The position numbers and the translations under genes are program-made. From a virus, in IMG/VR virus record IMGVR_UViG_3300037264_002101, positions 1 to 26,405 of that record: a DNA stretch of 26,405 nucleotides, one strand, 5' to 3'. The first letter of the stretch is position 1; each line of letters starts with the position of its first letter. The notes under the pieces are model-generated. The model saw only the letters and a program-made list of their open reading frames with translations, searched no databases and was not told the DNA's origin. Positions 4,782 to 20,970 of this stretch are shown piece by piece.

Positions 4782-4785
4782 TTGG

Positions 4786-4858: not shown

Positions 4859-4862
4859 TTGG

Positions 4863-5069: not shown

Positions 5070-5121
5070 ATGTCCTTCGGTGTTCACTGTTCGCTCATCC
5101 GCGAACAGGAAACACCTTGTG

Positions 5122-5193: not shown

Positions 5194-5197
5194 TTGG

Positions 5198-5269: not shown

Positions 5270-5280
5270 ATTGTTGTTGG

Positions 5281-5352
5281 AGCGGCGCAGGGGACTCGAA
5301 CCCCTCTCCTCTGCTTGGAAGGCAGATACATCACCATCAATGCTTGCGCCGC
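5281..5352 (-). tRNA. tRNA-Gly(TCC)
   Basis: Acceptor GCGGCGC/GCGCCGC, anticodon stem TCTGC/GCAGA with loop CTTCCAA, T-loop TTCGAGT, encoded CCA. Confidence 0.95.
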
Positions 5353-5375
5353 ATGCTTGTCCGTCGGCCCCTCAG

Positions 5376-5443
5376 TGGAGTACCAGGGACTCGAACCCTG
5401 CAATGCCTCGCTGCCAGCGAAGCGCGCGCCCTGCGCGTACCCC
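5376..5443 (-). tRNA. tRNA-Ala(GGC), very short D-arm
   Basis: Acceptor GGGGTAC/GTACTCC keeps the G3-U70 alanine identity pair. Anticodon stem CTTCG/CGAGG with loop CTGGCAG. The D region is compressed (GCGC-AGG-GCGC), giving a 68-nt gene. CCA not encoded. Confidence 0.8.
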
Positions 5444-5484
5444 ATATTGACCCTATTCAGTTGTCAAAGATCATCGTCTTACAG

Positions 5485-5558
5485 TGGAGCCGGAGGGAAT
5501 CGAACCCTCCTCACGGTGCTTGCAAAGCACTGTCGCCTGCCTTGGAACATGCGACCCC
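5485..5558 (-). tRNA. tRNA-Ala(TGC)
   Basis: Acceptor GGGGTCG/CGGCTCC with G3-U70, anticodon loop TTTGCAA, T-arm GAGGG/CCCTC. The D-arm pairs poorly. CCA not encoded. Confidence 0.82.
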
Positions 5559-5565
5559 AGGTGTT

Positions 5566-5592
5566 GGGTGGGGGGCCGAAGCCCCCTCACCC
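5566..5592 (-). terminator. GC-rich UUCG hairpin between initiator-like and Ala tRNAs
   Basis: On the minus strand GGGTG-A-GGGGGC, loop TTCG, GCCCCC-CACCC: 11 pairs, one bulged A, and a C(UUCG)G loop. No T tract follows. It resembles U-less actinobacterial terminators and could attenuate the array after the first tRNA. Confidence 0.55.
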
Positions 5593-5693
5593 GAGTCCGA
5601 CAAGTGGCCTGCACCATCTCGTCGGGATTCAGACCTCAGGAGTCCGCCTCTGGTTCTTCCAGTGGGCGCTCCGTCATCGGTCTGGCAGGTTGG

Positions 5694-5766
5694 TGGCGGC
5701 TACGGGAGTTGAACCCGATGTCTCCTGGTTATGAGCCAGGCGAGTAAACCGTTTCTCTCAGCCGCG
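5694..5766 (-). tRNA. tRNA-Met(CAT), initiator-like
   Basis: Acceptor CGCGGCT/AGCCGCC has an unpaired C1-C72, D-stem GAG/CTC gives A11-U24, and the 5' end starts CGCGG, all initiator features. Anticodon stem CCTGG/CCAGG (not the full GGG/CCC), loop CTCATAA, encoded CCA. First tRNA behind the array 2 leader. Confidence 0.85.
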
Positions 5767-5783
5767 AACCGTTGCTACCAGCG

Positions 5784-5867
5784 TCAGCCGGTAAATCGAC
5801 CGGCGCCTACGGGAATCCCCATGGCGGCGCCGGTCATCTCAGTTGTGATGCTCGTGCACGCTCGCAT
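5784..5867 (-). CDS. Leader mini-ORF of tRNA array 2 (27 codons)
   Basis: The 27-aa frame starts MRACTSITTEMTGAAMGIPV and has a strong Shine-Dalgarno, GGAGGTGA, six nt before the ATG. It lies between the array 2 promoter (5911-5933) and tRNA-Met. Unlike the other three leader ORFs it has a 43-nt 5' leader. No family recognised; the strong ribosome binding site supports translation. Confidence 0.6.
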   Translation of the reverse strand: MRACTSITTEMTGAAMGIPVGAGRFTG

Positions 5868-5910
5868 GTGGGTCACCTCCGTGGCTCGACGGTCTTGCGT
5901 TCTGCGAACC

Positions 5911-5933
5911 ACTGTAGCACGGAGGGGTGACAG
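5911..5933 (-). promoter_or_regulatory. Promoter for tRNA array 2, RF, recA
   Basis: CTGTCA-N11-TACAGT with TTGCGA 19 nt upstream of the -10 box. It begins about a dozen bases after the stop of the nucleotidyltransferase gene, and the CCTTGCGAGCCTGTCACCCC block is identical to that at array 1. Confidence 0.7.
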
Positions 5934-5945
5934 GCTCGCAAGGGG

Positions 5946-6629
5946 TTATCCCAAGTCCTTGATCCGTTCGAGCACCAAGAGGCGTTCAGCGAGTTCCTCG
6001 CTGGGGTTCTCGGGCAGGTCGGTGTCAGCCGAGTTGAAGTCGTCCATGAGGGAACGCACCATCTCCTCGTAGCCCTCCACGTCGTTGGCGGCCATCAGCC
6101 CGGCCTCGCGGCACATCTGAACTTCCTCAGAAGTCAGGCGCACACGCAGGACGCCCTCAGACAAAACGGCCATACCCTGGATGATGAGCCGGTAGCAGTG
6201 GCGTCCGTGCTTCTCGGTGCGCTTCTTGAGGTCGGCAGAGAACCCAGCGCCCGGCTCTGCCTCCTCGCGACGCTTCAACCGCTCCAACTGCTGGATGGCG
6301 TAGCCCCCGTAGGTCTTGCGAACGCGCTGGCTCAAGAAGGACTGACGGATGCCCACGAGGGCTTCGCCCACTTCGGTGCACACCTCGTACTCGGGCAACC
6401 AGAGCAACTCCATCACCGTGGGGTTGTTGGCCAAGCACAACTTGACAAACTTTGCCAACTCGTGGTGGGCCACATCGGGGTCGTGGGCGACGCGCGACTC
6501 CTTGGGCGGGTGCAGGCCCAGCAACTCAGAGGTGCGGGCCTGGAACACGCCGAGGCGATCGATGTCAGAGGTTGGGGTGGCAAGGCCGTATGCCGTCGAA
6601 CCGACGACGCCTTGAAGGATCACGTTCAT
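5946..6629 (-). CDS. RlaP-like nucleotidyltransferase (pol beta fold)
   Basis: About 227 aa. The N-terminus carries GSTAYGLATPTSDIDRLGVF (residues 10-29), the GS...DxD signature of pol beta-type nucleotidyltransferases, closest to the RlaP family described as a component of RNA repair operons. The ATG at 6629 is chosen because the TATGGT -10 box lies 7 nt upstream (leaderless); a frame start at 6641 would sit inside the promoter. Pnkp and an RNA ligase lie 3-5 kb away on the same strand, and tRNA array 2 is directly downstream. The nucleotide added and the substrate are unknown; tRNA end repair is the natural inference. Confidence 0.85.
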   Translation of the reverse strand: MNVILQGVVGSTAYGLATPTSDIDRLGVFQARTSELLGLHPPKESRVAHDPDVAHHELAKFVKLCLANNPTVMELLWLPEYEVCTEVGEALVGIRQSFLSQRVRKTYGGYAIQQLERLKRREEAEPGAGFSADLKKRTEKHGRHCYRLIIQGMAVLSEGVLRVRLTSEEVQMCREAGLMAANDVEGYEEMVRSLMDDFNSADTDLPENPSEELAERLLVLERIKDLG

Positions 6630-6636
6630 ACCCGAC

Positions 6637-6659
6637 ACCATACCTGTCAGGTATGACAG
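6637..6659 (-). promoter_or_regulatory. Leaderless promoter of the nucleotidyltransferase
   Basis: CTGTCA-N11-TATGGT, 7 nt before the ATG. The region holds two dyads: CCTGTCA-TACC-TGACAGG and CATACCTG-T-CAGGTATG (6640-6656). The dyads could be an operator. Confidence 0.72.
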
Positions 6660-6670
6660 GCTCCGTCGGG

Positions 6671-6808
6671 TTAGACCGGGACGGGCTGACGCTCCGGTTC
6701 GCGCACTGGCGGCGCTGGTTCTGGCGATGGCTCATGCCGCGGCTCGCGCACGGGGGGCGCCGGTACTTGCCACGGTTCCTCGCGAACGGGGGTTCCAATT
6801 TCACCCAT
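6671..6808 (-). CDS. Small proline-rich protein
   Basis: About 45 aa, starting MGEIGTPVREEPWQVP, with two near-repeats of PAPPVREP and a PVPV end. The ATG overlaps the stop of the upstream gene (ATGGGTGA), so translation may be coupled; ATGs at 6814 and 6817 are alternatives. Highly biased composition suggests an unstructured linker or binding peptide. No family recognised, and the Pro/Glu bias leaves doubt. Confidence 0.5.
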   Translation of the reverse strand: MGEIGTPVREEPWQVPAPPVREPRHEPSPEPAPPVREPERQPVPV

Positions 6809-7565
6809 CTTCATCATCCTCATCTTCGTCGTCCTCGGCGCGCAACTCAGCCAAGGCATCAGCGACGGCCTTGAAGGTGTTCCTCATGCTCACCATGGCG
6901 GCACCGACAGTCGTGGCGACCTCAGCCATAGCAAAGCCCAGCCGAGTCATTGTGTCCTTGAAGGCTTCGGATGCCTGTTGTTGGCGGCGCCGAGCGGCTT
7001 CTTCGAGATCGTCCTTGGTCACGTCGGTGAGAATCTCGTAGCCCACCCCATAGAACTCGGCCACCCTGGCCAACTCAACGGGCTGCACGAATCCAAGCCA
7101 AGGGACCTGCACCAAGGAATCGACGCGAGCGAACTCGGCCCGGTACCCACGGTCATGCTCGAACACGCGACCCCAGAGCAAGGCGCGCCCCCAGACCAGC
7201 CTGGTCCACGGGGGCGTCGTGTTGAGAGGGGTGTAACGGGACATCCCCGACAGCGGCCAATCCCACGCCATCGCCTCGATGGTCTTGTACGCATAGATGC
7301 CACACCCCACCCCCGCGTGGGCCTTGGTCACCGCGGTCGGCGCCGACTCGCACGGATCGTCCTCACTGCGGCAGTAGGCCGTGATGAAGTTGCGGTCGCG
7401 ATCACGGATGACATCACTGACCCACTCGCCAACCGGCGGCCAAACGATTCCTGAGGCTGGCGACCGCAACACCGGAGTTTCCTCGTCGCCAGCGAGCACC
7501 CAGCACCGCCAAGCCACGATTGGCTCGGCTAGGTCTGGAATCTCAATCTCGGCGTTCCCAATCAC
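6801..7565 (-). CDS. Hypothetical protein with CGIYAYK motif and acidic tail
   Basis: About 254 aa. The GTG at 7565 is chosen because TACCAT lies 7 nt upstream in the phage promoter context; a TTG at 7595 would be inside the promoter. Residues 1-110 contain AEPIVAWRCW, a Cys/His cluster (C65, C72, H83, C88) and GCGIYAYK near 88-94. Similar AWRxW...CGIYA proteins occur widely in actinobacteria and their phages without known function. The C-terminal part is helical (EEAARRRQQQASEAF) and ends in an Asp/Glu run. The Cys/His set may bind a metal. Confidence 0.78.
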   Translation of the reverse strand: MIGNAEIEIPDLAEPIVAWRCWVLAGDEETPVLRSPASGIVWPPVGEWVSDVIRDRDRNFITAYCRSEDDPCESAPTAVTKAHAGVGCGIYAYKTIEAMAWDWPLSGMSRYTPLNTTPPWTRLVWGRALLWGRVFEHDRGYRAEFARVDSLVQVPWLGFVQPVELARVAEFYGVGYEILTDVTKDDLEEAARRRQQQASEAFKDTMTRLGFAMAEVATTVGAAMVSMRNTFKAVADALAELRAEDDEDEDDEDG

Positions 7566-7572
7566 GAGGTCG

Positions 7573-7595
7573 ATGGTACTACTGCCCCATGACAA
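7573..7595 (-). promoter_or_regulatory. Leaderless promoter of the CGIYAYK gene
   Basis: TTGTCA-N11-TACCAT ends 7 nt before GTG 7565. It lies directly downstream of tRNA-Arg(TCT), so this gene need not depend on array 3 transcription. Confidence 0.7.
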
Positions 7596-7596
7596 G

Positions 7597-7668
7597 CGCC
7601 CTCACGAGGAGTCGAACCCCGATCCACCGCTTAGAGGGCGGGTGTCCTGTCCGTTGGACGATGAAGGC
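7597..7668 (-). tRNA. tRNA-Arg(TCT), C33
   Basis: Acceptor GCCTTCA/TGAGGGC, D-arm GTCC/GGAC, anticodon loop CCTCTAA, so position 33 is C instead of U. T-arm CGGGG/CCTCG. CCA not encoded. Confidence 0.85.
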
Positions 7669-7672
7669 TTGG

Positions 7673-7745
7673 TGCCCCCGCTGGGACTCGAACCCAGACC
7701 TGCCCTTTAGGAGAGGGCCGTGGTAATCCCTTCCACCACGGGGGC
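7673..7745 (-). tRNA. tRNA-Arg(CCT)
   Basis: Acceptor GCCCCCG/CGGGGGC, anticodon stem GCCCT/AGGGC with loop CTCCTAA, T-loop TTCGAGT, encoded CCA. Confidence 0.94.
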
Positions 7746-7760
7746 CAGATAATCTTTGCC

Positions 7761-8126
7761 ATGGACTTCTTCGCGACCGCCACGCTAACGGTAGCCCTGA
7801 TGGCTGGTGCGTCCTTCGTCGGCCGCATGGCCTACATGGCCAAACATGCCCCCGTCCCCGAGGGGGACAGGCCACGCAAGGGGTGGACCGTCGCCTGGGT
7901 TGTCTGGCTGGTGGCGGCGATCCTGGGGTTCTTCGCCATTGAGGTTCCGGCACTTCTGAATGACAGCGGGGGCGACACCCTCACCGAGCACATCCAGTTC
8001 GTCGCCGGGCAATCGCCCGCGTGGGCGATCATCGTGGCTGGTGGGATCGTGTCCTTCTTCGCATGGTTCCTCAAGCATCTATTTGACAAGGACTCGCGGG
8101 TCTGGGGTTACCTTCACCGCAAGTGA
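7761..8126 (+). CDS. Small membrane protein, holin-like topology
   Basis: 121 aa, the only plus-strand gene within the arrays. Three hydrophobic segments are visible: about 4-20 (ATATLTVALMAGASFVG), 44-62 (VAWVVWLVAAILGFFAIEV) and 90-107 (AWAIIVAGGIVSFFAWFL), with a charged tail. GATAAT stands 7 nt before the ATG, consistent with a leaderless start, but no TGTCA element precedes it. Topology would fit a holin or a host-envelope protein; no lysis gene is visible nearby, so function is open. It is antisense to any read-through transcript of array 3. Confidence 0.75.
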   Translation: MDFFATATLTVALMAGASFVGRMAYMAKHAPVPEGDRPRKGWTVAWVVWLVAAILGFFAIEVPALLNDSGGDTLTEHIQFVAGQSPAWAIIVAGGIVSFFAWFLKHLFDKDSRVWGYLHRK

Positions 8127-8130
8127 TTGG

Positions 8131-8202
8131 TCGGGATGGGGAGAATCGAACTCCCTACTTCTCGCCCCCCAGACGAGCGTTCTACCGATGAACTACATCC
8201 CG
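8131..8202 (-). tRNA. tRNA-Pro(GGG)
   Basis: Acceptor CGGGATG/CATCCCG, anticodon stem CTCGT/GCGAG with loop CTGGGGG, T-loop TTCGATT, encoded CCA. Third Pro isoacceptor. Confidence 0.93.
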
Positions 8203-8215
8203 TTGTGTTGTTGCG

Positions 8216-8287
8216 CCCCCCACCCAGGAGTTGAACCTGGACCTGTGCCTTCGGAGGACACCGTGATCTCCGTTTCACCAATGGGGG
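8216..8287 (-). tRNA. tRNA-Arg(CCG)
   Basis: Acceptor CCCCCAT/GTGGGGG, anticodon stem GTGTC/GGCAC with loop CTCCGAA, T-loop TTCAACT. CCA not encoded. Confidence 0.92.
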
Positions 8288-8299
8288 ATATGTGTTTGG

Positions 8300-8373
8300 C
8301 GCGCCCGGCAGGACTCGAACCTGCAGCCTCTTGATTCGTAGTCAAGTGTCCTAATCCATTAGACCACGAGCGC
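8300..8373 (-). tRNA. tRNA-Arg(ACG)
   Basis: Acceptor GCGCTCG/CGGGCGC, anticodon stem CTTGA/TCAAG with loop CTACGAA, T-loop TTCGAGT, encoded CCA. A34 would need host TadA to become inosine. Confidence 0.94.
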
Positions 8374-8385
8374 ATGTTGTATTCG

Positions 8386-8456
8386 CAGGAGTGTGGAGAA
8401 TCGAACTCCATCGACATGAGTTTTGGAGACTCACCGGCTACCTCAGCCTCACTCCT
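8386..8456 (-). tRNA. tRNA-Trp(CCA)
   Basis: Acceptor AGGAGTG/CACTCCT, anticodon stem TGAGT/ACTCA with loop CTCCAAA, T-loop TTCGATT. CCA not encoded. The 5' end overlaps the HNH stop codon by 2 nt. Confidence 0.94.
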
Positions 8457-8805
8457 ATGTTGGTTGCAACCGAGTATGGGTCCTGAGCCGATGGCAGTTC
8501 GAGCAAACCAACTCGCACTTGGCCACCTCGTCCTTCAACTTCTGCCAGTTCCCCATGATCACTAAGGTCGAAATCTTGTCCACCTTGTCCGACCCCTCGG
8601 GGTGGTCGAAATCCATGACGCAGGGCGGATAGACCTCCCCGCAGTCCGAACACGGACCAGATTTCTGCTCATCGACCCAAGAGCGCATCTCAGCCTTTCG
8701 CTGAACTGCCCTCCCTTTGTAAACCTCCTTGTTCCTGCGGTAGTGCTCTTTGCGGTACTCCCGCATCTTCCCTTGATTTGCCTCTCTCCACTCTGGTGTT
8801 GACAT
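8455..8805 (-). CDS. HNH endonuclease-like protein
   Basis: 116 aa. The N-terminal half is basic and helical (MREYRKEHYRRNKEVY). Residues about 52-112 form an HNH/zinc module: CSDCG, then DFDHPEG, then CELVCSNCHRLRTH. The two Cys pairs would hold zinc and DH plus the later His would be catalytic. Such small HNH proteins often behave as mobile endonucleases; its insertion between Trp and Glu tRNAs, with 2-nt overlap, fits that. TACCAT lies 6 nt before the ATG, so a leaderless start is possible, though the upstream TGTCA element is not recognisable. Confidence 0.85.
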   Translation of the reverse strand: MSTPEWREANQGKMREYRKEHYRRNKEVYKGRAVQRKAEMRSWVDEQKSGPCSDCGEVYPPCVMDFDHPEGSDKVDKISTLVIMGNWQKLKDEVAKCELVCSNCHRLRTHTRLQPT

Positions 8806-8848
8806 GCTCCCATGGTATCAAACCTTGGGGCGAGTTTTGAGTCTTGCG

Positions 8849-8920
8849 TCCCCCGACAGGGAATCGAACCCTGTTCTGAACCTTGAAAGAGTTCCGTCCT
8901 AACCAATGAACGACCGGGGG
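8849..8920 (-). tRNA. tRNA-Glu(TTC)
   Basis: Acceptor CCCCCGG/TCGGGGG, D-arm GTTC/GGAC type, anticodon stem GAACT/GGTTC with loop CTTTCAA, T-loop TTCGATT. CCA not encoded. Confidence 0.94.
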
Positions 8921-8932
8921 TTGTTGTTGTGG

Positions 8933-9004
8933 CGGTCTATAGGGGTATCGATCCCCTTACTTCACCTTGACAAGATGATGTGATAGCCAGTTCACCAATA
9001 GACC
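8933..9004 (-). tRNA. tRNA-Asp(GTC)
   Basis: Acceptor GGTCTAT/ATAGACC, anticodon stem TCATC/GGTGA with loop TTGTCAA, encoded CCA. The T-loop is ATCGATA, so T54 is replaced by A. Confidence 0.9.
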
Positions 9005-9018
9005 TTGGTGGTGTTGCG

Positions 9019-9089
9019 TCCCCCCGCCGGGACTCGAACCCGATTCTCCTGCTTGAGAGGCAGGTGACGCACCCTATGTCTCCGGGGGG
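9019..9089 (-). tRNA. tRNA-Glu(CTC)
   Basis: Acceptor CCCCCCG/CGGGGGG, anticodon stem CCTGC/GCAGG with loop CTCTCAA, T-loop TTCGAGT. CCA not encoded. First tRNA of array 3. Confidence 0.94.
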
Positions 9090-9122
9090 CTGATGCCCGC
9101 ACCCGGAATCGGGAGAGGGCTA

Positions 9123-9212
9123 TTAGCGCTCGGGGCGCTCGACAGGTCGCGCATCGCGACGCCAGCGCCGGGAGCGCTGATCTCGTTCGCGGAAGTCGGT
9201 AGACCTAGACAT
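9123..9212 (-). CDS. Leader mini-ORF of tRNA array 3 (29 codons)
   Basis: The ATG lies 7 nt after the TAGAGT -10 box, so the mRNA is predicted leaderless. The 29-aa peptide starts MSRSTDFRERDQRSRRWRRD and contains about ten Arg, giving a strongly basic, possibly RNA-binding peptide. It ends 33 nt before tRNA-Glu(CTC). Together with the ORFs at 1481 and 12634 it forms a recurring promoter-miniORF-tRNA unit. The peptide sequences are not alike, which favours a positional or regulatory role, but a product function is possible. Confidence 0.58.
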   Translation of the reverse strand: MSRSTDFRERDQRSRRWRRDARPVERPER

Positions 9213-9219
9213 GGCTATG

Positions 9220-9242
9220 ACTCTACCACACGGGGGTGACAG
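9220..9242 (-). promoter_or_regulatory. Promoter for tRNA array 3
   Basis: CTGTCA-N11-TAGAGT with TTGCTT 19 nt upstream of the -10 box; placed directly after the whiB stop codon. Shares the CTGTCACCCC core with the other array promoters. Confidence 0.7.
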
Positions 9243-9254
9243 CGAAGCAAGGGG

Positions 9255-9491
9255 TTATCCGCTGGCCAATGTCAACTGGCGGCGTCGTCGGAGTATCCGA
9301 CGTTCACGCTCGCTCATGCCACCCCAGATGCCAAACCTCTCATCTAGGCCAAACGCCAAGCAGTCCTCTCGGACGATGCACCCATAGCACACCTCCTTGG
9401 CCTCCTTGGTCGATTCACCCCGACCAGGGAAGAACAACTCGGGGTCTACTCCAAGGCAGTTGGCGAAGTCTTGCCAAATCGGCTCGTGCAT
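9255..9491 (-). CDS. WhiB-family iron-sulphur transcription factor
   Basis: 78 aa. Four cysteines follow the Wbl pattern: C12, then C35-x2-C38-x5-C44, followed by the GIWGG turn (about 54-58) and a basic tail (RERRILRRRRQ). Wbl proteins bind a 4Fe-4S cluster and usually contact the primary sigma factor. They are confined to actinobacteria and their phages, so this gene is the best host indicator. No ribosome binding site is seen; TACAAC lies 7 nt before the ATG, suggesting a leaderless start. The start codon is at the edge of a 13-bp inverted repeat. It may regulate the phage promoters described here (inference). Confidence 0.93.
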   Translation of the reverse strand: MHEPIWQDFANCLGVDPELFFPGRGESTKEAKEVCYGCIVREDCLAFGLDERFGIWGGMSERERRILRRRRQLTLASG

Positions 9492-9536
9492 AGGCCCGGT
9501 TGTAGCAGGTGATCAACACCCACACAACCGGGCCTA
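9491..9536. repeat. 13-bp inverted repeat touching the whiB start
   Basis: Arms 9491-9503 (TAGGCCCGGTTGT) and 9524-9536 are perfect complements with a 20-nt loop that itself holds GGTG/CACC. One arm covers the possible -10 box and the first base of the whiB start codon. It could be an operator, a terminator of the pnkp transcript, or both. Confidence 0.9.
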
Positions 9537-9549
9537 CATCTGAACTAAT

Positions 9550-10407
9550 TCAGAAGTCCCCGTAGGCAACCTGGAAACAGGTCAGACCGGCGTCACGCCA
9601 CATCCTCACGACCTGATCGCGGTCATCAATGACCAACACGGGGTTCCAGTGAGGGAGGATGTCCCGTTCCAGAATCTCGCGCTTGATGATCGAGTCCTTC
9701 CGCATGTCGCCCTCGGGACGCATCAGCACGCTGACGAAGGGAACGTCGTACTGCATCAGCCACGCCATGGTGTCCCGACGAACCTGCTCGGTGCCTTCAC
9801 GACCCGAGCACACCACGACGTGCCGCGTCTCGGCCAGCATCTTGACCAACTCCACGACCCGAGGGTTCGGGGCGTCCTCCAAGCACTTCTCGTACTCGAA
9901 GGGGCCGCGGCTGACGTGAAGGGCGAGGGTGCCGTCCACATCGACCACAACGCACTCAGGGAGGCTCTCATCGACCGTGACGGTCACATCCGGCTTGAGG
10001 TGGTCGTTGAACATCCTCATGATGACCTCGGCCCCCACCGAGCGATCGCGGGTGAGGTCGCGCTTAATACACTCCTCGGGCGTCACGTCGGTGAAGTCCT
10101 TCGTCTCGAAGTGGGCGCCGAACTCACGCGCCAACTCCCTGAGGTGATCGACCACGCCATGCTGGATGTTGGTGTCATCACAGATGACCGTGAGGCCATC
10201 CGCCAGACCGGCACGGATGAGGGCGTCACGGGCGACCTTGGTCGCCTTCTCCTTGCCCTTGGACCATTTGGTATCACCGTGCAACATCACGCGGAGCGAG
10301 TCGCGATTTACGACCACCGTGTTGCCGGGGTTCTTCTTCACTTGTTCGGCCGCCCAGGTGGACTTGCCCGATGCGGGTAATCCTTGTGTTGCAATCAACT
10401 TGATCAT
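9550..10407 (-). CDS. pnkp: Polynucleotide 5'-kinase / 3'-phosphatase
   Basis: 285 aa, T4 Pnkp domain order. The N-terminal kinase has a P-loop GLPASGKST (residues 9-17), NRD (34-36) and a DDTN motif (77-80). The C-terminal phosphatase of the HAD type has DVDGT (156-160), CSGRE (200-204) and IDDRD (260-264). The enzyme heals broken RNA ends by removing 3' phosphates and phosphorylating 5' ends before ligation. Its start overlaps the RNA ligase stop by 4 nt (ATGA), so the two are translationally coupled. All key residues are present. Confidence 0.94.
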   Translation of the reverse strand: MIKLIATQGLPASGKSTWAAEQVKKNPGNTVVVNRDSLRVMLHGDTKWSKGKEKATKVARDALIRAGLADGLTVICDDTNIQHGVVDHLRELAREFGAHFETKDFTDVTPEECIKRDLTRDRSVGAEVIMRMFNDHLKPDVTVTVDESLPECVVVDVDGTLALHVSRGPFEYEKCLEDAPNPRVVELVKMLAETRHVVVCSGREGTEQVRRDTMAWLMQYDVPFVSVLMRPEGDMRKDSIIKREILERDILPHWNPVLVIDDRDQVVRMWRDAGLTCFQVAYGDF

Positions 10408-11498
10408 GTTTCTTCCTCTCGATCTACGAATGGCTTCTCTGCTGCGGGCTTGATCATCTGCCAGATGGCCGGGGCGATGTCCTTGCCGTCAAACAGCGAG
10501 AACATCAGGCCGGGGGACGACGACTTCTTAGCCCTAGCAGCGAAAGCCTTGCGGTCCCCGTCGGGCGTGTTGTGACAGATGATGCTGAACTCCTCGTAGG
10601 CCGCATCTTCGATGGTCTTGAATTGCAGGTTGAGGTCGGAGATGACTCCCTTGACCCAGCCGTAGAACTCATCAGGAACGCGGTCCAGCACGTCGGTGAA
10701 GTCACCGCCACGGGCGAGGACTTCCCAGACACGCTTGGAGTTGATGCCAGTGATGATCCGGTGGAGCCGGACGTACTCGGGGTGCTTCACCTTGAGCCGG
10801 AATGAAGGCTCGCCGGGGCGGTACCAGACCGCCACGACACCCTCGTCCTCCTCATGATTGTTCCCCGTGGCGAAACGGTAAACCGCATCCATGTCGCCAA
10901 CACCAACGTGCTGGGTGGTGCGAGCACCGAGCCACCAGTCGATCTCCCACAAGGGGATGTCGGCTCCGGTAGCGATGTCGATGGCACCCAACATGACCAA
11001 CTCTGCCCGATCGCCATAGTTCACAACGATGCGGTTCTCGGGAAAGATGATCTCCACCAGGGTGGTGACACCTTCGGGTTGAGTGAAGTCGGGCATCTCG
11101 GCGTTCAGCCAGGCCGTGGCCCAGATGGCCTGATCGCTCATGAACGACCCACGGGTGGACACGGCGAAGCGACCATCGGGACGCTTGTAGATGATGCCAA
11201 GCGAGCCGTCCATCTTCTCCGTCACGATGGGCGGAATGGTCAGGGCGAACTTCGGAACAGTCGTCTCGGAGTGGTTGAAGAACTTGGGGAAAGGGCGCGC
11301 CAACACTTTGCCGTCGCTGGCGACAATCAGTCCACGACACGCCGAGGTCACGGGCGTCCAAGCGCGGGTGATCTGGCAGATCGATGAGTAGTTGTAGATC
11401 GTCAGGTCGAACTCGGGATGGCTCTGCGTCATGAGGTGCTTGGCCTCGATGGCCGCACGAATGTCGTCGTCCGAGAACAGGTCGTTGATGTGGGTCAT
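10404..11498 (-). CDS. RNA ligase, T4 Rnl1-like
   Basis: 364 aa. Nucleotidyltransferase motif I is EKMDGS with lysine 95 as the predicted AMP-accepting residue. Motif III-like E149 lies in TLVEIIFPENRIV, motif IV is EGVVAVW (219-225) and motif V is KVKHPEY (236-242). Upstream, ACRGLIV (about 53-59) is the Rnl1-type conserved R. A helical C-terminal domain follows, as in tRNA-specific Rnl1. With Pnkp it forms the classical RNA break-repair pair that restores tRNAs cut by anticodon nucleases. A good ribosome binding site (AAAGGAGG) precedes the ATG. Confidence 0.93.
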   Translation of the reverse strand: MTHINDLFSDDDIRAAIEAKHLMTQSHPEFDLTIYNYSSICQITRAWTPVTSACRGLIVASDGKVLARPFPKFFNHSETTVPKFALTIPPIVTEKMDGSLGIIYKRPDGRFAVSTRGSFMSDQAIWATAWLNAEMPDFTQPEGVTTLVEIIFPENRIVVNYGDRAELVMLGAIDIATGADIPLWEIDWWLGARTTQHVGVGDMDAVYRFATGNNHEEDEGVVAVWYRPGEPSFRLKVKHPEYVRLHRIITGINSKRVWEVLARGGDFTDVLDRVPDEFYGWVKGVISDLNLQFKTIEDAAYEEFSIICHNTPDGDRKAFAARAKKSSSPGLMFSLFDGKDIAPAIWQMIKPAAEKPFVDREEET

Positions 11499-11522
11499 GG
11501 TGTCCTCCTTTCGTCAGGGGGG

Positions 11523-11545
11523 ACTATACACCCCAGGCATGACAA
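11523..11545 (-). promoter_or_regulatory. Promoter of the RNA ligase-Pnkp operon
   Basis: TTGTCA-N11-TATAGT, with a 24-nt leader carrying GAAAGGAGGACACC before ATG 11498. Divergent from the promoter at 11548; the two TGTC elements stand back to back (TGACA-AGCC-TGTCC). Confidence 0.75.
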
Positions 11546-11547
11546 GC

Positions 11548-11570
11548 CTGTCCGGGTTAAGGAGTACGGT
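11548..11570 (+). promoter_or_regulatory. Leaderless promoter of the zinc/HTH gene
   Basis: CTGTCC-N11-TACGGT, 6 nt before ATG 11577. One base differs from the TGTCA element. Confidence 0.65.
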
Positions 11571-11576
11571 GTGCTC

Positions 11577-11978
11577 ATGCGAACGTGCAACAACTGCCTC
11601 AAGACCCTTCACCGTCGGTGTGAACGCAACGAATGCGCTTGCACGGTCTGTGGGTCGAGGGATCGTCGGCCGATCGCCACAGTGAAGCCACCCACTCCAC
11701 CCCGCGCTCGCGCCCCACGCCCTCCTAGGGATCGGGCTTACTCCACCAGCGACAAGGCGGCGTACATGCGCGAGTACCGTCGGCGTAAGGCTGCTGGGGA
11801 GGTCGAAGGGACCTATCGACGCACTACCCCCGACGATCTCCGCCGCATGGTGGAGTTGCGACTACAGGGCCTCACCTACCGAGAGATCGGCGAGGAGTTG
11901 GGCATGGACCACTCTTATGTGGCCCGCCTCACCAAGAGCGAGATGGCGGAAGGCCGAGGTCCTGCCCCCCAGGGCTGA
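11577..11978 (+). CDS. Zinc-finger plus HTH DNA-binding protein
   Basis: 133 aa, starting MRTCNNCLKTLHRRCERN. The N-terminus has CNNC, RRCERNECACTVC cysteines that could form a zinc ribbon. A Pro/Arg-rich linker follows, then a YMREYRRRKAAGE helix, and a C-terminal helix-turn-helix (LRLQGLTYREIGEELGMDHSYVARL), similar to resolvase or sigma-like HTH. The ATG at 11577 is chosen from the leaderless promoter; a longer in-frame start at 11418 lies inside the ligase gene. Its last 12 codons run across the 3' half of tRNA-Ser(TGA) on the other strand. Probably a regulator. Confidence 0.82.
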   Translation: MRTCNNCLKTLHRRCERNECACTVCGSRDRRPIATVKPPTPPRARAPRPPRDRAYSTSDKAAYMREYRRRKAAGEVEGTYRRTTPDDLRRMVELRLQGLTYREIGEELGMDHSYVARLTKSEMAEGRGPAPQG

Positions 11979-12031
11979 CGCCCCCGTCCGCTTTCAAGGC
12001 GGCGCCCGCTCGCTTGTCGGGTTGACCTTCC
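11947..12031 (-). tRNA. tRNA-Ser(TGA)-like, T-loop replaced (possible pseudogene)
   Basis: Acceptor GGAAGGT/GCCTTCC, anticodon loop CTTGAAA, long variable arm and encoded CCA are intact. T-stem TGGGG/CCTCG matches its neighbours, but the loop is GGCAGGA instead of TTCGAGT. The changed part lies under the 3' end of the plus-strand CDS. It may be non-functional. Confidence 0.6.
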
Positions 12032-12035
12032 GTGG

Positions 12036-12120
12036 CGGAGAGCGGAGCACTTGAAGCCCATGGTGTTACCCACGACTCGCTTTCGAGGCGGTCCCGGCGC
12101 GCCTGTCCGGTTCACTCTCC
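12036..12120 (-). tRNA. tRNA-Ser(CGA)
   Basis: Acceptor GGAGAGT/GCTCTCC, anticodon loop CTCGAAA, long variable arm, T-loop TTCAAGT, encoded CCA. The two outer anticodon-stem pairs and one T-stem pair are mismatched. Confidence 0.78.
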
Positions 12121-12123
12121 ATG

Positions 12124-12148
12124 ACAGGTTCTCGTAACGAGAACCTGT
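12124..12148. repeat. 25-bp palindrome between Ser tRNAs
   Basis: ACAGGTTCTCGT, one central A, then the exact complement: 12-bp arms. It abuts the CCA end of tRNA-Ser(GGA). Possible processing hairpin or protein-binding dyad. Confidence 0.93.
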
Positions 12149-12150
12149 GG

Positions 12151-12237
12151 CGGAGAGCCGAGGACTCGAACCCCACGCCCTTTCGGGCGCCAACTCGCTT
12201 CCAACGAGCGCCGGTACGCCTGCCCGGTTGACTCTCC
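12151..12237 (-). tRNA. tRNA-Ser(GGA)
   Basis: Acceptor GGAGAGT/GCTCTCC, anticodon stem GCTCG/CGAGT with loop TTGGAAG, variable arm CGCCCGAAAGGGCG, T-loop TTCGAGT, encoded CCA. Confidence 0.95.
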
Positions 12238-12239
12238 AT

Positions 12240-12302
12240 GATGTCGGCGAACGACGACATCCCCAGGATGTCGGCGAACGACGACAATCGGCACGATCGT
12301 GC
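12240..12302. repeat. 20-bp direct repeats and palindrome between Ser tRNAs
   Basis: The same 20 bases (GATGTCGGCGAACGACGACA) occur at 12240-12259 and 12267-12286, each able to form a GATGTCG/CGACATC-type hairpin. GCACGATCGTGC at 12291-12302 is a perfect palindrome. Confidence 0.92.
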
Positions 12303-12365
12303 TGATTTCGTTCGGATACAGGCTCACTGACCTGTTTCGGGCTGAAATCGGCACGTTCGTTCCGG

Positions 12366-12452
12366 CGGAAGGCCGAGGACTTGAACCCCACCCCCCGGAG
12401 GGGGCGAACTCCTTAGCAGGGAGTCCCAGCACGCCTGTCTGGTTGACCTTCC
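12366..12452 (-). tRNA. tRNA-Ser(GCT)
   Basis: Acceptor GGAAGGT/GCCTTCC, anticodon stem ACTCC/GGAGT with loop CTGCTAA, variable arm CCCCCTCCGGGGGG, T-loop TTCAAGT. Followed by CCG, so CCA is not encoded. Confidence 0.95.
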
Positions 12453-12457
12453 ATGTC

Positions 12458-12515
12458 GCTTAGGTTTGGACCGGCTTCTGTGCCCTGGGGGCACGGATTC
12501 AGGTCTAGACCTAAG
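12458..12515 (-). repeat. Long imperfect hairpin between Ser and Tyr tRNAs
   Basis: Outer arms CTTAGGT/ACCTAAG, middle GACC/GGTC and inner GTGCCC/GGGCAC stems stack into one 58-nt hairpin. Could be a spacer RNA structure, a processing signal or a small RNA. Confidence 0.6.
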
Positions 12516-12518
12516 TGG

Positions 12519-12601
12519 TGAGGGTGGAGGGAATCGAACCCCCTCAGGCAATGCCAACTGGTTTACAGCCAGCCCCGGCTCTCCAACTCCGGCGCACCCT
12601 C
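12519..12601 (-). tRNA. tRNA-Tyr(GTA)
   Basis: Acceptor GAGGGTG/CACCCTC, anticodon stem GCTGG/CCAGT with loop CTGTAAA, long variable arm, T-loop TTCGATT, encoded CCA. First tRNA of array 4. Confidence 0.95.
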
Positions 12602-15292: not shown

Positions 15293-18200
15293 TCATTCTC
15301 CTGAGTCGTCGCTCTCCTCGATGGACGACTTCGCGTTGATAGCGAGAGAGGCGACGCGAGAGGCGAGACGCTCGACCCGGAAGGGGCGAACGGCTTCGGT
15401 CAACTCGGCGAGACGGGCTGCATGGGCGTTGAGCACTTCGAGGATCGCCAGAACGGCGTCCCCGTCCATGCTGTGCTTGCCACAGTGGGCACACTCCCTC
15501 ATCGACCCCGCTGCCACCAGCGAGTCGAACTGACCCGTAACGGAGTTGTAGCGAGCGCGAGGCACGAGGGATTCAGTCTGGACGACCTCACCAGCCGAAG
15601 CGGCGAGCGCCGGGGTGATGAAGCCCGAGACGTTGACGGCCAGAAGGCCGACAACCTCAAGACGCCCATCGATGTTGCGCCAGTCCGGGCTGAGGTCAGA
15701 GCCACGCAGGCTCCGAACTTGCTCGGGCGAAGCGGTGGAGCGCACAGCGCCAGCCGCCACGATGCCGAACTCGTTCTCGTAGAGGGCCACGTCAGCGATG
15801 GCACACCCGGTGTGGGCGTAGAACGCCTGGGTGTCGCTGGCCCGCAACTTGAGGTCGGGGTGCACCGTGTCCATGTAGACGACGCCGGTAGCAACCAACT
15901 CGCCCTCGACCGTGAGGACGCTCTTGTTGCGGAAGTTGCGGTAGCCGTCACTCGAACGAGGAACGTCCACGCAACGATCGCGGAAGCCGATGTGGCAGGA
16001 GCCGAACTTGGCGACCAGGCCGTAGATGCGGCCGTTGGGGTAGATGATGACCGGGTGGGCCTCGTCCATCTCGCCGATCGAGAACCACTCCATCGGAGGG
16101 TTGACCGGGATGACGGGAAGTTCGGTCACGTTGTCCGAAGCCGAAGCCACGAGGGACTTCAACTCGATCGGCTCTCCGCCGCGCCCAACCAGTGGGTAGG
16201 GGCTTACGACACGCCAGACCTCGCCGAACACCTCGGCGCCGGATGCAACCAGAACGAGGTCATCACCCTGCTCCTCGGGAGAAATGACCCTGAGGGCCGC
16301 CTCTTGGAACGCCGGGAAGGGGGTCATAGTGGCGCCCATGATGCGACCCTCGACCAACACCTCGGTGATGCCTTCGGGGTCGCCGAACATGGCATCTTCC
16401 ATGGCCACGTCCTCGCCATTGGCGTCACGTAGTTCAGCCACAACCGAGTCGATGTCGGCAGAGACGCCACGCATGGTGCCTTCGGTCAGGAGACGCTTGG
16501 CCTCCTGGCCAGCCTCGCCCGAATCGAAATAGCCGCGACCGATGATCTCGTGTCCACGCCGCTCGACCTCGTGAATCGATCCAGCGATGACAGCGCCATC
16601 ATGGCCACCAGCATTGATGGTCTGCAGCATGAGGGGAATGGGAAGGTCGCGCCAGGTGAGGGCTTCCTTGTCAATCATGCGGCCATCGCCCGAAGGCAGG
16701 CCCTCCACGATCAGGACACCTTCCCACTCGAAATCGCCCTTCTTGAAGTCGCCGACCACCTTGGAATCCTCCTCGGCGGCCTGATCCTCAACGGGGGCAT
16801 CCTCGTCGGCAGCGAACTCGTCGGAAGCAATGGGAGTAACGGGAACGATCTCATCGTCCTTGTCGCCCGTACGGGCAACCGACTCGAACCAACGCCGAAT
16901 GACTTCGCCCACAAGGGCAACGTCGTCGGTGCTGGCGATGTCGCTGCCCCGGATGGCGGCCTCAGAAGCCATGGCGTGGAACCGAGCGCGCATCGTGGCA
17001 AGAGCGGCACGCACTTCCTCAACAGAAGCAACGTCCTCACCCAACTCGGGGATGTCCTCCACACCACCATCGCGCAGATGCTTGGCCAGGTGGTTGTAGA
17101 CCCCCTGGTAGTCCGCGGTCGGGATGGTCGAATCATCGATCACGGCGATGGCCGAATGCACGGCCCACAGAACGGCCGCACCGGGCGTGCCATCCTCGCT
17201 CACCTCGTGATGCGGGAACTTGTAGGCGGTCTTGTTGGTGGGATTGCCGTTGGAATCCACCCAGGCGTAAATCTTCCCGTAGTACGCGGGAGCCTCGCCA
17301 GAACGAGTGCGCTTCTTGACCTCGCTGCCGTCCCAATCGGTGAAGGTGGGGGGGTTCTTGGTGGCGCTGCTGTGAGGAGGAAGGGCCTTGAAAGATGCCT
17401 CGCCCTCGACCGCCATCGTCTCCGCCGCCCCATCGGAAGCCAAGGCTGGGGCTTCCTTGTCAGCGTCGGCCAGATGTGCTGCCAGATGCTCGTAGACGCC
17501 CTTGTAGTCGGCGTCGGGGATGGTCGTGCCGCCACGGCCGCCGTTCAGCACGCCGATTCCAGTGGAGCACGCCTTGAGGTTTGCTGCACCGGGCGTTCCG
17601 TCCTCGGACACCTCGTGGTGGATGAACTTCCACGCGTCCTTGGTCTTGGGGTCACCCTCTGGGTCGTTCCAGGCGTAGATTTCCTCGTAGTACGAGACAT
17701 CCTCGCCGGACTTGGCGCGGGCCTCTGCGGCCGGGCCGTCCCATGGGCCATCCGTGGTGGGGCCATGATGCACAGGGACAGCCTTGAACTCGGCGGGACC
17801 CTCGGCCTCCATGTCCTCCTCGGACTCCTCGATCTGAACCTCGACCTCAACTTCTCCGGTGCCATCACAGGTCGGGCATTCCTCGCCATCGACCTGTCCG
17901 GTGCCATCGCAGGTCGGACACGGCATCATCGCCACGTCCTCCTCCTCGCCATGATCAGCAGCCACGTCCCCGCCACCAGCGACCTTCTCGGCCGCAACGA
18001 ACTCATCGAGCACTGCTAGGCGCTCGTCGCGAGTCGGCTCATCGGCGATCACGATGGCCAGCGGGTCGGCCGAAGCTTCCGCGGGGTGATCTTCCTGCCC
18101 CTTCTCGGCGGCATTGAGCGCAGCCAACTGCGTCTTGGCATCTTCCTCGGAAGGATGACATCCCATCAGTTCACCATCAGCCGACTTGACGACCGCATAG

Positions 18201-18916
18201 GGGTCGCCCGCGTCACACTCGGGGTGCATTTCCACGATCTCGTAAGGCATTGAGTCACCCTCCTGGGCGCCAGGTTGAGCGGACGGAGTTGATTCGATTC
18301 CCTCTGATCGTAGTCCAGACGGACCCTCAGAGTTAGAAATGGCTCCCCGAAGTGGCCACACGGAACTCTCCTCACCCCACACCAGTTCAACTCCATCGAA
18401 CCGGACCTTCTCCCCGATGAGGCTCTCAGCGAAAGCCACTTCATCATCGGAAGCCCCGTAACACAGGGTGATATGGGGCATGAAGTCGTGATTGGACTTG
18501 ATTTCTTGGTCAGAACCAAGAGAAGCATTGACGGACTTAACCAGGGCCGCCCTCATCTCCCCAAGGCCGGGAGCGTCCACCAACAGGACTAGGGGAGGAT
18601 CATCCTCACCAGCCAACTCGAAGGTGGTGACGGCGGTGATCTCGCCATGAATCGGCTCGCGCTCGGAAGCAATCTCAGACGAAATCACCTCAGCAACCTG
18701 CTGCTGTGCGGCATCGGTCCATTGCTCGTCGGTCACCTTGCCGAAGTAGGCGAGGGTCAGGTGGACCTCCTCCTCGGGGGTGCCACCCTCAACGACGAAG
18801 CGCCCCGGATCGTCGGGACGCACGCAGGCCATGATGCCGTCAGAGTGATCTGGCTGATGAGCAGCGAACTCGATCGTCACCCCTTGACGCGTGATCTTTG
18901 AGACTCCGGGGATCAT
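15293..18916 (-). CDS. Capsid maturation protease fusion with N-terminal 2H phosphoesterase domain
   Basis: 1207 aa, several modules. Residues 1-195: HLTLAYF (HLT at 52-54) and HITLCYG (HIT at 148-150), the paired HxT motifs of 2H phosphoesterases. About 220-270: a YEIVEMHPEC...GCHPSEEDA segment. About 330-360: CPTCDGTG twice, a DnaJ-like zinc motif. About 380-500 and 515-640: two copies of a domain with FKA.P.H, EEIYAW/GKIYAW, HHEVSEDGTPGAA and GVYxHLAxHL. About 725-890: prohead protease-like (GRGYFDSGEAGQEAKRLL, VSADIDS, AFQEAALRVIS). The rest (about 900-1207) is a phage-specific tail with an ECAHCGKH motif. The portal gene overlaps its start by 4 nt, the usual portal-protease order. Cleavage of the assembling head is the expected role; the 2H domain would act on 2',3'-cyclic or 2'-5' RNA ends or cyclic nucleotides. 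Confidence 0.85.
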   Translation of the reverse strand: MIPGVSKITRQGVTIEFAAHQPDHSDGIMACVRPDDPGRFVVEGGTPEEEVHLTLAYFGKVTDEQWTDAAQQQVAEVISSEIASEREPIHGEITAVTTFELAGEDDPPLVLLVDAPGLGEMRAALVKSVNASLGSDQEIKSNHDFMPHITLCYGASDDEVAFAESLIGEKVRFDGVELVWGEESSVWPLRGAISNSEGPSGLRSEGIESTPSAQPGAQEGDSMPYEIVEMHPECDAGDPYAVVKSADGELMGCHPSEEDAKTQLAALNAAEKGQEDHPAEASADPLAIVIADEPTRDERLAVLDEFVAAEKVAGGGDVAADHGEEEDVAMMPCPTCDGTGQVDGEECPTCDGTGEVEVEVQIEESEEDMEAEGPAEFKAVPVHHGPTTDGPWDGPAAEARAKSGEDVSYYEEIYAWNDPEGDPKTKDAWKFIHHEVSEDGTPGAANLKACSTGIGVLNGGRGGTTIPDADYKGVYEHLAAHLADADKEAPALASDGAAETMAVEGEASFKALPPHSSATKNPPTFTDWDGSEVKKRTRSGEAPAYYGKIYAWVDSNGNPTNKTAYKFPHHEVSEDGTPGAAVLWAVHSAIAVIDDSTIPTADYQGVYNHLAKHLRDGGVEDIPELGEDVASVEEVRAALATMRARFHAMASEAAIRGSDIASTDDVALVGEVIRRWFESVARTGDKDDEIVPVTPIASDEFAADEDAPVEDQAAEEDSKVVGDFKKGDFEWEGVLIVEGLPSGDGRMIDKEALTWRDLPIPLMLQTINAGGHDGAVIAGSIHEVERRGHEIIGRGYFDSGEAGQEAKRLLTEGTMRGVSADIDSVVAELRDANGEDVAMEDAMFGDPEGITEVLVEGRIMGATMTPFPAFQEAALRVISPEEQGDDLVLVASGAEVFGEVWRVVSPYPLVGRGGEPIELKSLVASASDNVTELPVIPVNPPMEWFSIGEMDEAHPVIIYPNGRIYGLVAKFGSCHIGFRDRCVDVPRSSDGYRNFRNKSVLTVEGELVATGVVYMDTVHPDLKLRASDTQAFYAHTGCAIADVALYENEFGIVAAGAVRSTASPEQVRSLRGSDLSPDWRNIDGRLEVVGLLAVNVSGFITPALAASAGEVVQTESLVPRARYNSVTGQFDSLVAAGSMRECAHCGKHSMDGDAVLAILEVLNAHAARLAELTEAVRPFRVERLASRVASLAINAKSSIEESDDSGE

Positions 18917-20970
18917 GCAGAAATCCTTTCATGCTGAGCCACGGCCTGCTCGATCAACTCATTGGGTACCCGCAACCCATTCGGCCCCACCCTCAGTGGG
19001 CGTGCCATGGCAGACATCGCCTCGACCTCCAAGAGTGACAGCAGGCAATTCATGACCATGGCGGCCTTCTCGTCCGCAGTGAAGTTGTCGATGCCTTGAG
19101 CCAAGAAGTGCTCACGGAGCCAACCCTTGCCCCGCACGGTGAAGTTGTCCCAGGCCCCATCGAGCAACTCGCTCAACGTGACCTTCAACGAGGTTAGGTC
19201 GCGGTCGTTGACGTGCGAGAGGATGTCGGTCTTGCGGACGTTCTTGAACTGATCCTTCATAGCCACATGAGAACCGTTCATCTTGGAAAGCAGCCGATTC
19301 CCGGCACGCTCAAGAGCACGCTCAAGAGCGGCGTCAGCACCCGTAGCCAGACGATCGATCAACGTCTCCTCGACGCGTGGACCGGCAGGCCCCCGCGGAA
19401 TCGGTTCGTCTTGGCCCGTCTCGTTATCAATGACCGGGCGCGCCCCTGGGCCGGTGTCCTTCTTCTGGCCTTGGCCGTTGGCCGGTGCTGACCCAACGGG
19501 AGAAGCAGGAACCGTGCCCTCCTCTGTTGGCAAGTCCAGTTCACCTTCGAGTTCGGGATAGAGCATGCCCATGACCTTCGGACCGAAGATGATCGGCTCA
19601 GAGGCCATGAGGTTGCGAAGGTCACGCTCCTTGCGCTCCTCATCGGTGGGAGCGTCAGCCTCATCGAAGCCCGACTCACGCAAGTAAGCGACGCGGGAGA
19701 GTTCGACACGATCGAAAGCCGCACGGGCGTTGGGTCCGGTGTCGGTGCGAGAGGTGATGCGCGACGGATCGAATAGAAGGTAGAAGTTCGATGCCTCCGC
19801 CTCGGTCATCCCCTCAAACTCGACCAACATCGGCCGCAGGTAGGCGAAGGTCAAGAACTCGGACAGCATGTCGCCGATGGGGGTGACGTGCTTGGAAATG
19901 AAGTCGGCGTCGATGTTGTAGCCAGTCCAGTGGTTCAGGCCACCCTTGCCCTCCATGATCTCGGGCGGAACATCCAGGCCACCAGCCAGACGCTTGAGGG
20001 CTTCTTCCCTCAGGTCCATATACATGGTGTCAAGATCGCGGGCGACATCGATCAACTTCACCTTGTCGAAGAACTCAGCGGGGCCACGCATAATGAGGGG
20101 CACCAGCGATGCCGCCGAGGTGCGATCCTCGACCGGCGCCGTCAGATGCTCCATCAGTTCTTCGGTGAACGGATCGATGTCGTCAGTGCGATCGGAGTCG
20201 TCCTCGGTTTCGTCATACGGACCGAAAGACATCTCGTCGGGGACGAACAGGATTCCGGCCGACAGTCGCGATTTGGCCACAGCGTCAACCAGTTGGGTGA
20301 GGACTACGACCTCACGACAGATAGGCAGGACGTGCTTAAGGGCGGAATCAGGGCGCTCGGAGAAGCGGGGATCAGAACGCCAGAGACGAGCGATGTAGGT
20401 GTTGGGGTCCAACTCGTCGTACTGCTGGCCACCGTAGCCGCCGTAGTTCCGCTTGATGGTCTTGCCGTAACCCTCGATCTTGACTTCCTCGGGGGAGAGG
20501 AACTCCCAGCCGATGCCCGCTTCGCGATTGAACTCGTCAAGAAGGGGGGAACCCAACAAGAAGGACTCGCCAGCAACCTGCAGGTGCATCGACGCCTTGC
20601 GATACAACTCCTGCTTTCCGCCACGCGGGGGCATGAGGGCGTCCCACACGCGCGTCACGCGCTCGTCACCTGTCTCCCGCCAGCCGCCAGTTGCAACCTC
20701 GTTGTCTTTGACGACGGGACGAATCTGGCAGGCCGCCACCGTGTTGGCCGTTAGGCCAATGACGTAGGCCACCTCACCGATGATCTCGTAGTAACCGAAC
20801 GCGTCACGCTGCCAAGCCTCCGGCACCCCCAGGGGGGCCTTGATGTCGTTGATCTTACGGAGGGCTGACGTGGTGACATAGGCCGATCCCTTGGGATGGG
20901 TCATGGCGAAGTCCGCCAGACGGCCCTTGGCAAGCATGTCTACACGGCGAAGTGGTCCAGAACGCGGCAT
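18913..20970 (-). CDS. Portal protein
   Basis: 685 aa, a large portal protein forming the DNA entry vertex of the head. Recognisable by the AFGYYEIIGEVAYVIGLTANTV region (about 58), GESFLLGSPLLDEF (about 132), DRTSAASLVPLIMRGPAEF, DLDTMYMDLREEALKRLAGGL and the PPEIMEGKGGLNHWTGYNID segment that precedes the stem. It starts 38 nt downstream of a TGTCG-N11-TATGGG promoter with an AGAGAGGTAGAGG ribosome binding site. ATGA overlap couples it to the protease fusion. No terminase precedes it here, since the neighbouring upstream genes are divergent. Confidence 0.88.
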   Translation of the reverse strand: MPRSGPLRRVDMLAKGRLADFAMTHPKGSAYVTTSALRKINDIKAPLGVPEAWQRDAFGYYEIIGEVAYVIGLTANTVAACQIRPVVKDNEVATGGWRETGDERVTRVWDALMPPRGGKQELYRKASMHLQVAGESFLLGSPLLDEFNREAGIGWEFLSPEEVKIEGYGKTIKRNYGGYGGQQYDELDPNTYIARLWRSDPRFSERPDSALKHVLPICREVVVLTQLVDAVAKSRLSAGILFVPDEMSFGPYDETEDDSDRTDDIDPFTEELMEHLTAPVEDRTSAASLVPLIMRGPAEFFDKVKLIDVARDLDTMYMDLREEALKRLAGGLDVPPEIMEGKGGLNHWTGYNIDADFISKHVTPIGDMLSEFLTFAYLRPMLVEFEGMTEAEASNFYLLFDPSRITSRTDTGPNARAAFDRVELSRVAYLRESGFDEADAPTDEERKERDLRNLMASEPIIFGPKVMGMLYPELEGELDLPTEEGTVPASPVGSAPANGQGQKKDTGPGARPVIDNETGQDEPIPRGPAGPRVEETLIDRLATGADAALERALERAGNRLLSKMNGSHVAMKDQFKNVRKTDILSHVNDRDLTSLKVTLSELLDGAWDNFTVRGKGWLREHFLAQGIDNFTADEKAAMVMNCLLSLLEVEAMSAMARPLRVGPNGLRVPNELIEQAVAQHERISA

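Follow-up and report, generated by a model that had tools for sequence, protein, structure and literature searches.

A 2H phosphoesterase domain fused to a predicted head maturation protease in a phage genome

Why would a phage carry a 2H phosphoesterase at the N terminus of its head maturation protease? The question is raised by a gene of IMG/VR virus record IMGVR_UViG_3300037264_002101, whose positions 1 to 26,405 (26,405 nucleotides) were analysed as a single stretch, here called the window. The encoded polypeptide consists, in this order, of a 2H domain, a linker, two repeats, an S78-like protease domain (PROT), an assemblin-like C-terminal protease domain (CTD), and a tail. The two closest relatives, L002 and L003, share this architecture; L003 lies on a contig of 171 kb. 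The N-terminal domain is a genuine 2H phosphoesterase kept under strong purifying selection, and related 2H domains have been joined repeatedly to head proteins. While the fusion of 2H domains to MuF and portal proteins is already published, their fusion to a maturation protease is new. The gene, and the parts of it that carry the 2H assignment, are the following:

15293..18916, minus strand: the whole fusion gene, 1207 amino acids, with its ATG at 18916 and no internal stops
18347..18865, minus strand: 2H phosphoesterase domain, residues ~18-190, supported by Pfam, the AlphaFold model, structure matches, and the ratio of non-synonymous to synonymous substitutions (dN/dS)
18755..18763, minus strand: first HxT motif, H52-L-T54, supported by conservation among 67 relatives
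18467..18475, minus strand: second HxT motif, H148-I-T150, supported by conservation and aligned with the HIT motif of PDB entry 1vdx

Identity of the N-terminal domain

The initial annotation, made from the sequence alone, had recognized HLTLAYF (residues 52-58) and HITLCYG (residues 148-154) as the paired HxT motifs of 2H enzymes, and both are indeed found at these residues, in LigT-type positions. By themselves the motifs are weak evidence, since pairs of HxT followed by a hydrophobic residue and spaced 80-110 residues apart arise in 116 of 20,000 shuffles of the fusion protein. A chance origin is ruled out by profile and fold together. The Pfam family PF13563 (2_5_RNA_ligase2) matches the window above its cut-off (E = 4e-8), and a profile built from 18 phage homologues and compared with PDB reaches LigT and ThpR with E values of ~1e-9 to 1e-8, but Acb1 with just 0.004. 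The AlphaFold model of the domain (67 aligned domains; predicted local distance difference test score, pLDDT, 88.6; predicted template modelling score, pTM, 0.82) has the duplicated, two-lobed 2H fold, the lack of which would have refuted the annotation. The solved structure nearest to the model is the Thermus 2'-5' RNA ligase 1iuh (Z 16.7, root-mean-square deviation 2.9, 154 aligned residues), followed by Deinococcus CPDase (Z 16.1), E. coli LigT (Z 14.5), and Usb1 (Z ~14), and more weakly by the rotavirus 2'-5'-phosphodiesterase (Z ~13), AKAP18-type proteins (Z ~13), and Acb1 (Z 10-12).

The annotation had named Acb1 as an example of 2H enzymes and had proposed a comparison with Acb1 and LigT. 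Kinship with LigT and ThpR stands, whereas Acb1 as the closest kin does not: the Acb1 family PF23474 gives 15.6 bits against a cut-off of 27, and the Z scores of 10-12 fall short of the 14-17 obtained for LigT and ThpR. Acb1 shares the 2H fold and the phage origin, but it is a free-standing protein and not a head fusion. The domain is not a ThpR equivalog either, as NCBIfam TIGR02258 gives 19.9 bits against a cut-off of 65.7. ThpR and LigT have in common with it the fold, both HxT motifs, and the best PDB sequence matches; in contrast, they are free-standing cellular enzymes, and their second motif reads HxTLxR where that of the window reads PHITxxYG. A scan of bacterial genomes found no close relatives.

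Conservation and selection

The catalytic histidines and threonines are almost invariant among the 67 relatives (H52 in 66 of them; T54, H148, and T150 in every one), even though the identity of the 2H domain to that of the window is mostly 19-31%, the two closest relatives excepted. Across the window, L003, and L002, dN/dS is 0.06-0.19 for the 2H domain, similar to the 0.13-0.16 of the S78-like domain and mostly far lower than the 0.25-0.54 of the linkers, all of them rough values because synonymous sites are near saturation. Since the four residues are conserved despite the low identity, and dN/dS is low, the 2H domain is predicted to be, very likely, an active enzyme.

The protease partner

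The remainder of the protein contains two domains that point to head maturation:

16268..16744, minus strand: S78-like protease domain (PROT), residues 725-883, assigned from an S78 match in a homologue and the conserved S819
15590..16126, minus strand: assemblin-like protease domain (CTD), residues 931-1109, assigned from VIA-align structure matches and H975, H1019, and S1076

PHROG matches of this part of the protein are to head maturation proteases. PROT has no Pfam match in the window; its homologue in Actinomycetia phage DSL-LC01, however, matches Peptidase_S78 above the cut-off (E 5.5e-6), and S819 is present in 28 of 28 sequences and H772 in 21 of 28. In a structure model of residues 715-1115, the S78-like part has a pLDDT of ~25-45 over much of its length, and the model is therefore uninformative there; the C-terminal part is good and was the only part used. 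The top structural match of the CTD in VIA-align is the T4 gp21 protease (Z 7.5, root-mean-square deviation 3.2, 121 aligned residues), after which come 28 herpesvirus protease entries with Z of 4-6 (top 29 rows); with all Z scores below 8, the assemblin-like assignment is suggestive and short of proof. Assemblins work with a Ser-His-His set, and H975, H1019, and S1076 are each found in 39 of 39 sequences, for which reason the CTD is probably a capsid maturation protease. Together, the PHROG matches, the S78 match in the homologue, and the resemblance of the CTD to gp21 and herpesvirus proteases support the earlier proposal of a 2H domain placed N-terminally on a head protease. For the 715-1115 model, Foldseek by itself returned no PDB match of significance, a profile of the protease region matched nothing among PDB sequences, and its comparison with a profile of XkdF-type proteases aligned the GxS stretch alone, without significance.

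Head linkage and domain arrangements

The fusion gene lies directly behind that of the portal protein, with which it overlaps through an ATGA, the ATG sharing 4 bases with the end of the portal open reading frame (ORF). No capsid gene was identified within the window.

18913..20970, minus strand: portal protein gene, directly upstream of the fusion gene (phrog_776 portal, E 5.6e-96)

The same linkage is seen in related phages, where a portal, MuF, or capsid homologue is encoded on the same fetched stretch for 85 of 105 2H ORFs, a count that reflects linkage and not prevalence because the loci are redundant and were retrieved by searching for 2H. At least six fusion orders with head proteins were found: 2H-PROT-CTD, PROT-2H-CTD, CTD-2H (Gordonia phages), MuF-2H-PROT-CTD (Streptomyces phage Geonosis), 2H ahead of an XkdF-type protease (2H-S78_2; Arthrobacter phages Salgado and Kharcho, and Microbacterium phage ValentiniPuff), and portal-2H. 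In Mycobacterium phages I3 and Settecandela the 2H domain is a stand-alone gene near the portal. When seven architecture labels are mapped onto an 80-row tree of 2H domains, they require 18 changes, where the minimum would be 6. That a catalytic domain stays intact while it shifts before, between, and after protease domains, and onto MuF, portal, and another protease, strongly indicates that its link to the head is important. The window and its two close relatives group together with good support, on a long branch that does not belong to a clade of 63 rows (98 in the Shimodaira-Hasegawa-like approximate likelihood ratio test) holding most other fusions. Since the trio lies outside this main clade, the 2H-PROT-CTD order of the window family may have had a separate origin, although this is a quick tree in which the placement of the long branch is unsure.

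Cultured phages of Gordonia, Mycobacterium, and Arthrobacter carry homologous 2H domains with both HxT motifs in genes of phrog_2659, phrog_18402, and phrog_14859, which are annotated as 'RNA ligase' or 'head maturation protease' (for example, Gordonia phage Inspectinfecti gp19 and Arthrobacter phage Salgado gp18). In many of these, the polypeptide that contains 2H also has the same C-terminal protease domain or, instead, an XkdF-type protease. They differ from the window in that the 2H domain, 25-38% identical, follows the protease domain or precedes a protease that is unrelated. Most of the relatives in these cultured phages, and many public phage genes with the 2H domain (L004, L005, L008, L010, L011, L012, L014, and L015), bear the label 'RNA ligase', which probably stems from the family name '2'-5' RNA ligase'; no nucleotidyltransferase-type RNA ligase family matched in these loci. 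The label is misleading, and it masks the predicted activity in many cultured isolates, in which the questions of delivery and substrate are open to direct testing.

The 2H domain is an accessory of the head protease, because phage records matching the whole fusion protein number 811 (mostly through the protease part) and those matching 2H number 229, under differing E limits.

Phage DSL-LC01 (L017, 4383-6950) has a head protease without 2H, with a different N-terminal segment in its place, and Microbacterium phage Cece (L018, 2574-7220) has a single protein of 1548 amino acids in which a related segment precedes the protease, also without 2H. In Gordonia phage ChisanaKitsune (L005, 3797-5853), a separate 2H gene downstream of the portal stands directly before a gene for a VIP2-like ADP-ribosyltransferase, making two adjoining candidate head effectors. 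Gordonia phage Belphegor (L016, 1705-2067) has a gene for a histidine-triad nucleotide-binding protein between a MuF-type gene and the 2H fusion.

Proposed role of the fusion

The reading preferred here, on which confidence is about evenly balanced, is that the 2H domain is a LigT/ThpR-like, head-associated cargo of the maturation protease that acts at the start of infection against nucleotides of host defence. The gene product would be a multi-domain head protein in which a catalytically competent 2H domain travels as cargo of the protease. It would enter the procapsid within the protease polypeptide, from which processing of the protease itself and of its partners would probably free it. The enzyme would then stay in the head, or leave with it, and would act as infection begins, presumably by opening 2',3'-cyclic phosphates or cyclic (oligo)nucleotides of the host defence.

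Head-joined effector enzymes are a well-established theme, with a precedent in T4 Alt, which is packaged in the head and injected. For 2H domains carried on MuF or on a portal protein, packaging, injection, and degradation of host nucleotide signals or RNA have been predicted (Iyer 2017, PMC5512222; Iyer 2022, PMC9503650). In these polyvalent proteins, too, a single chain combines 2H with a head protein, but in the window the partner is a head maturation protease with S78-like and assemblin-like domains, the 2H domain is N-terminal, and the genome adds an Rnl1-type ligase, which Iyer et al. did not see with these 2H domains. Wherever polyvalent proteins have an assemblin-like peptidase, it is at the C terminus, according to Iyer and colleagues, and its likely task is the processing of virion proteins; the window protein has this layout. 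Nudix and ADP-ribosyltransferase domains on MuF, portal, or capsid serine peptidase are also effector-head fusions, of a different enzyme class; a Nudix domain on a capsid-processing peptidase has been reported (PMC9503650).

Several points weigh against the cargo reading. LigT, CPDase, Usb1, 2'-5'-oligoadenylate phosphodiesterase, and Acb1 all share the fold, and the substrate is thus not deducible from it. Maturation often removes the head protease, and the 2H domain might disappear along with it, both outcomes being described in the literature; no virion mass-spectrometry report naming the 2H domain was found in the literature. Finally, the full RNA-repair set of the window phage fits another role.

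Possible counter-signalling during head assembly

An unlikely explanation, yet one that needs no injection, is that the 2H domain acts late, in the producing cell: the prohead protease would trigger the cyclic oligonucleotide-based antiphage signalling system (CBASS), and the tethered 2H domain would destroy the signal while heads are being assembled. According to PMC12409349, the prohead protease of phage Bas13 was reported to interact with a CBASS sensor and to set off growth arrest (Richmond-Buccola 2024). The fusion links the head-packaged 2H effectors predicted in 2017-2022 with this 2024 report. CBASS signals are cleaved by a 2H enzyme, Acb1, and in the phages studied here 2H has been joined to two types of protease, the S78-like/assemblin-like pair and the XkdF-type S78_2. 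However, the 2H domain also occurs as a separate gene, or on MuF or portal where no protease is involved, Acb1 is just a distant structural match, and the explanation presupposes a host CBASS of the relevant type. A narrower form, in which 2H was repeatedly welded to the CBASS-provoking protease as trigger and antidote in one polypeptide, so that the signal would be destroyed at the site and time of its provocation, is quite improbable.

RNA repair as a possible role

The annotation had also suggested that the 2H domain might act together with Pnkp, and the genes of the window lend themselves to such a role:

3657-4283, 5946-6641, and 9550-11498, minus strand: release-factor-like protein (208 amino acids, PCRF domain almost gone), RlaP nucleotidyltransferase, Pnkp, and Rnl1-type ligase
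126-12601, minus strand: 36 tRNA genes, among RecA, RNA-repair, and phosphoesterase genes

In this explanation, the 2H domain would open the 2',3'-cyclic phosphates of nuclease-cut tRNAs for repair by Rnl1 and Pnkp. Besides the many tRNA genes and the release-factor-like and RlaP genes, the window encodes an RNA ligase of the T4 type and a Pnkp with a HAD phosphatase, and L002 and L003 also keep a ligase and a kinase nearby. A role of this kind has been given to 2H in jumbo phages (Iyer 2021). Iyer et al., on the other hand, did not encounter these 2H versions together with RNA ligases in any case (Iyer 2017, PMC5512222). Three ligase families (Rnl1-type, PF09414, and RtcB) were found in none of the 14 complete phage genomes with a related 2H, head-linked or separate, and the sole record with any of them, among all 20 with 2H, is the window's own relative. 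The searches do work: phage Cece, a control that yielded no 2H, gave an RtcB as well as a PF09414 ligase. Of the 14 complete genomes, 7 contain HAD-Pnkp. T4-type Pnkp itself removes the cyclic phosphate, and repair enzymes have no need of a location in the head.

The absence of the three ligase families from the complete genomes rejects RNA repair as a general role of these 2H domains. The suggested partnership with Pnkp thus fits the gene content of the window, where RNA repair is possible, and is unlikely as a general purpose; it also leaves the head linkage unexplained. As an account of the fusion, RNA repair is quite unlikely.

Beside the tRNA-Ser gene (12148-12237), a stretch of 46 bases at 12078-12123 of the window shares 93-96% identity with sequences of Caulobacter phage BL57 and Bacteriophage DSS3_MAL1.

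Possible roles in RNA processing or head assembly

Very unlikely, too, is a Usb1-like RNase or RNA-processing effector that would be carried in the head and injected, damaging or processing host RNA. Usb1 is a good structural match (Z ~14), and such a function has been proposed for MuF-fused 2H domains by analogy with PBECR RNases (Iyer 2017, PMC5512222), but LigT and ThpR are nearer in both sequence and structure, and no sign of an immunity partner was seen. Most improbable of all is a non-catalytic, structural or nucleotide-binding domain for head assembly, which would suit the position of 2H mostly near head genes and the nucleotide binding of AKAP18-type 2H proteins (a match at Z ~13), but not the four catalytic residues kept in 66-67 of 67 relatives, nor the accessory character of a domain with 229 records against 811 for the fusion protein.

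Other domains of the fusion protein

Between the 2H domain and the proteases lie four further elements:

18041..18250, minus strand: small conserved domain, residues 223-292, 64-76% identical across the three close relatives, with poorly conserved linkers on either side
17849..17920, minus strand: double CxxCxGxG zinc-type motif (DnaJ-like), residues 333-356, in an acidic linker
17447..17791, minus strand: repeat domain 1, residues 376-490 (local hidden Markov model REP)
17051..17395, minus strand: repeat domain 2, residues 508-622 (local hidden Markov model REP)

The zinc-type motif has no part in the proposed mechanism, since its match to Pfam DnaJ_CXXCXGXG is below the cut-off (20.8 bits) and it is not conserved in L002 and L003, whose CPCH...GC stretch is different and located elsewhere. 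The repeat unit of ~115 amino acids, with its two copies behind acidic linkers, is also found in the MuF-2H-protease proteins of L009 and L159.

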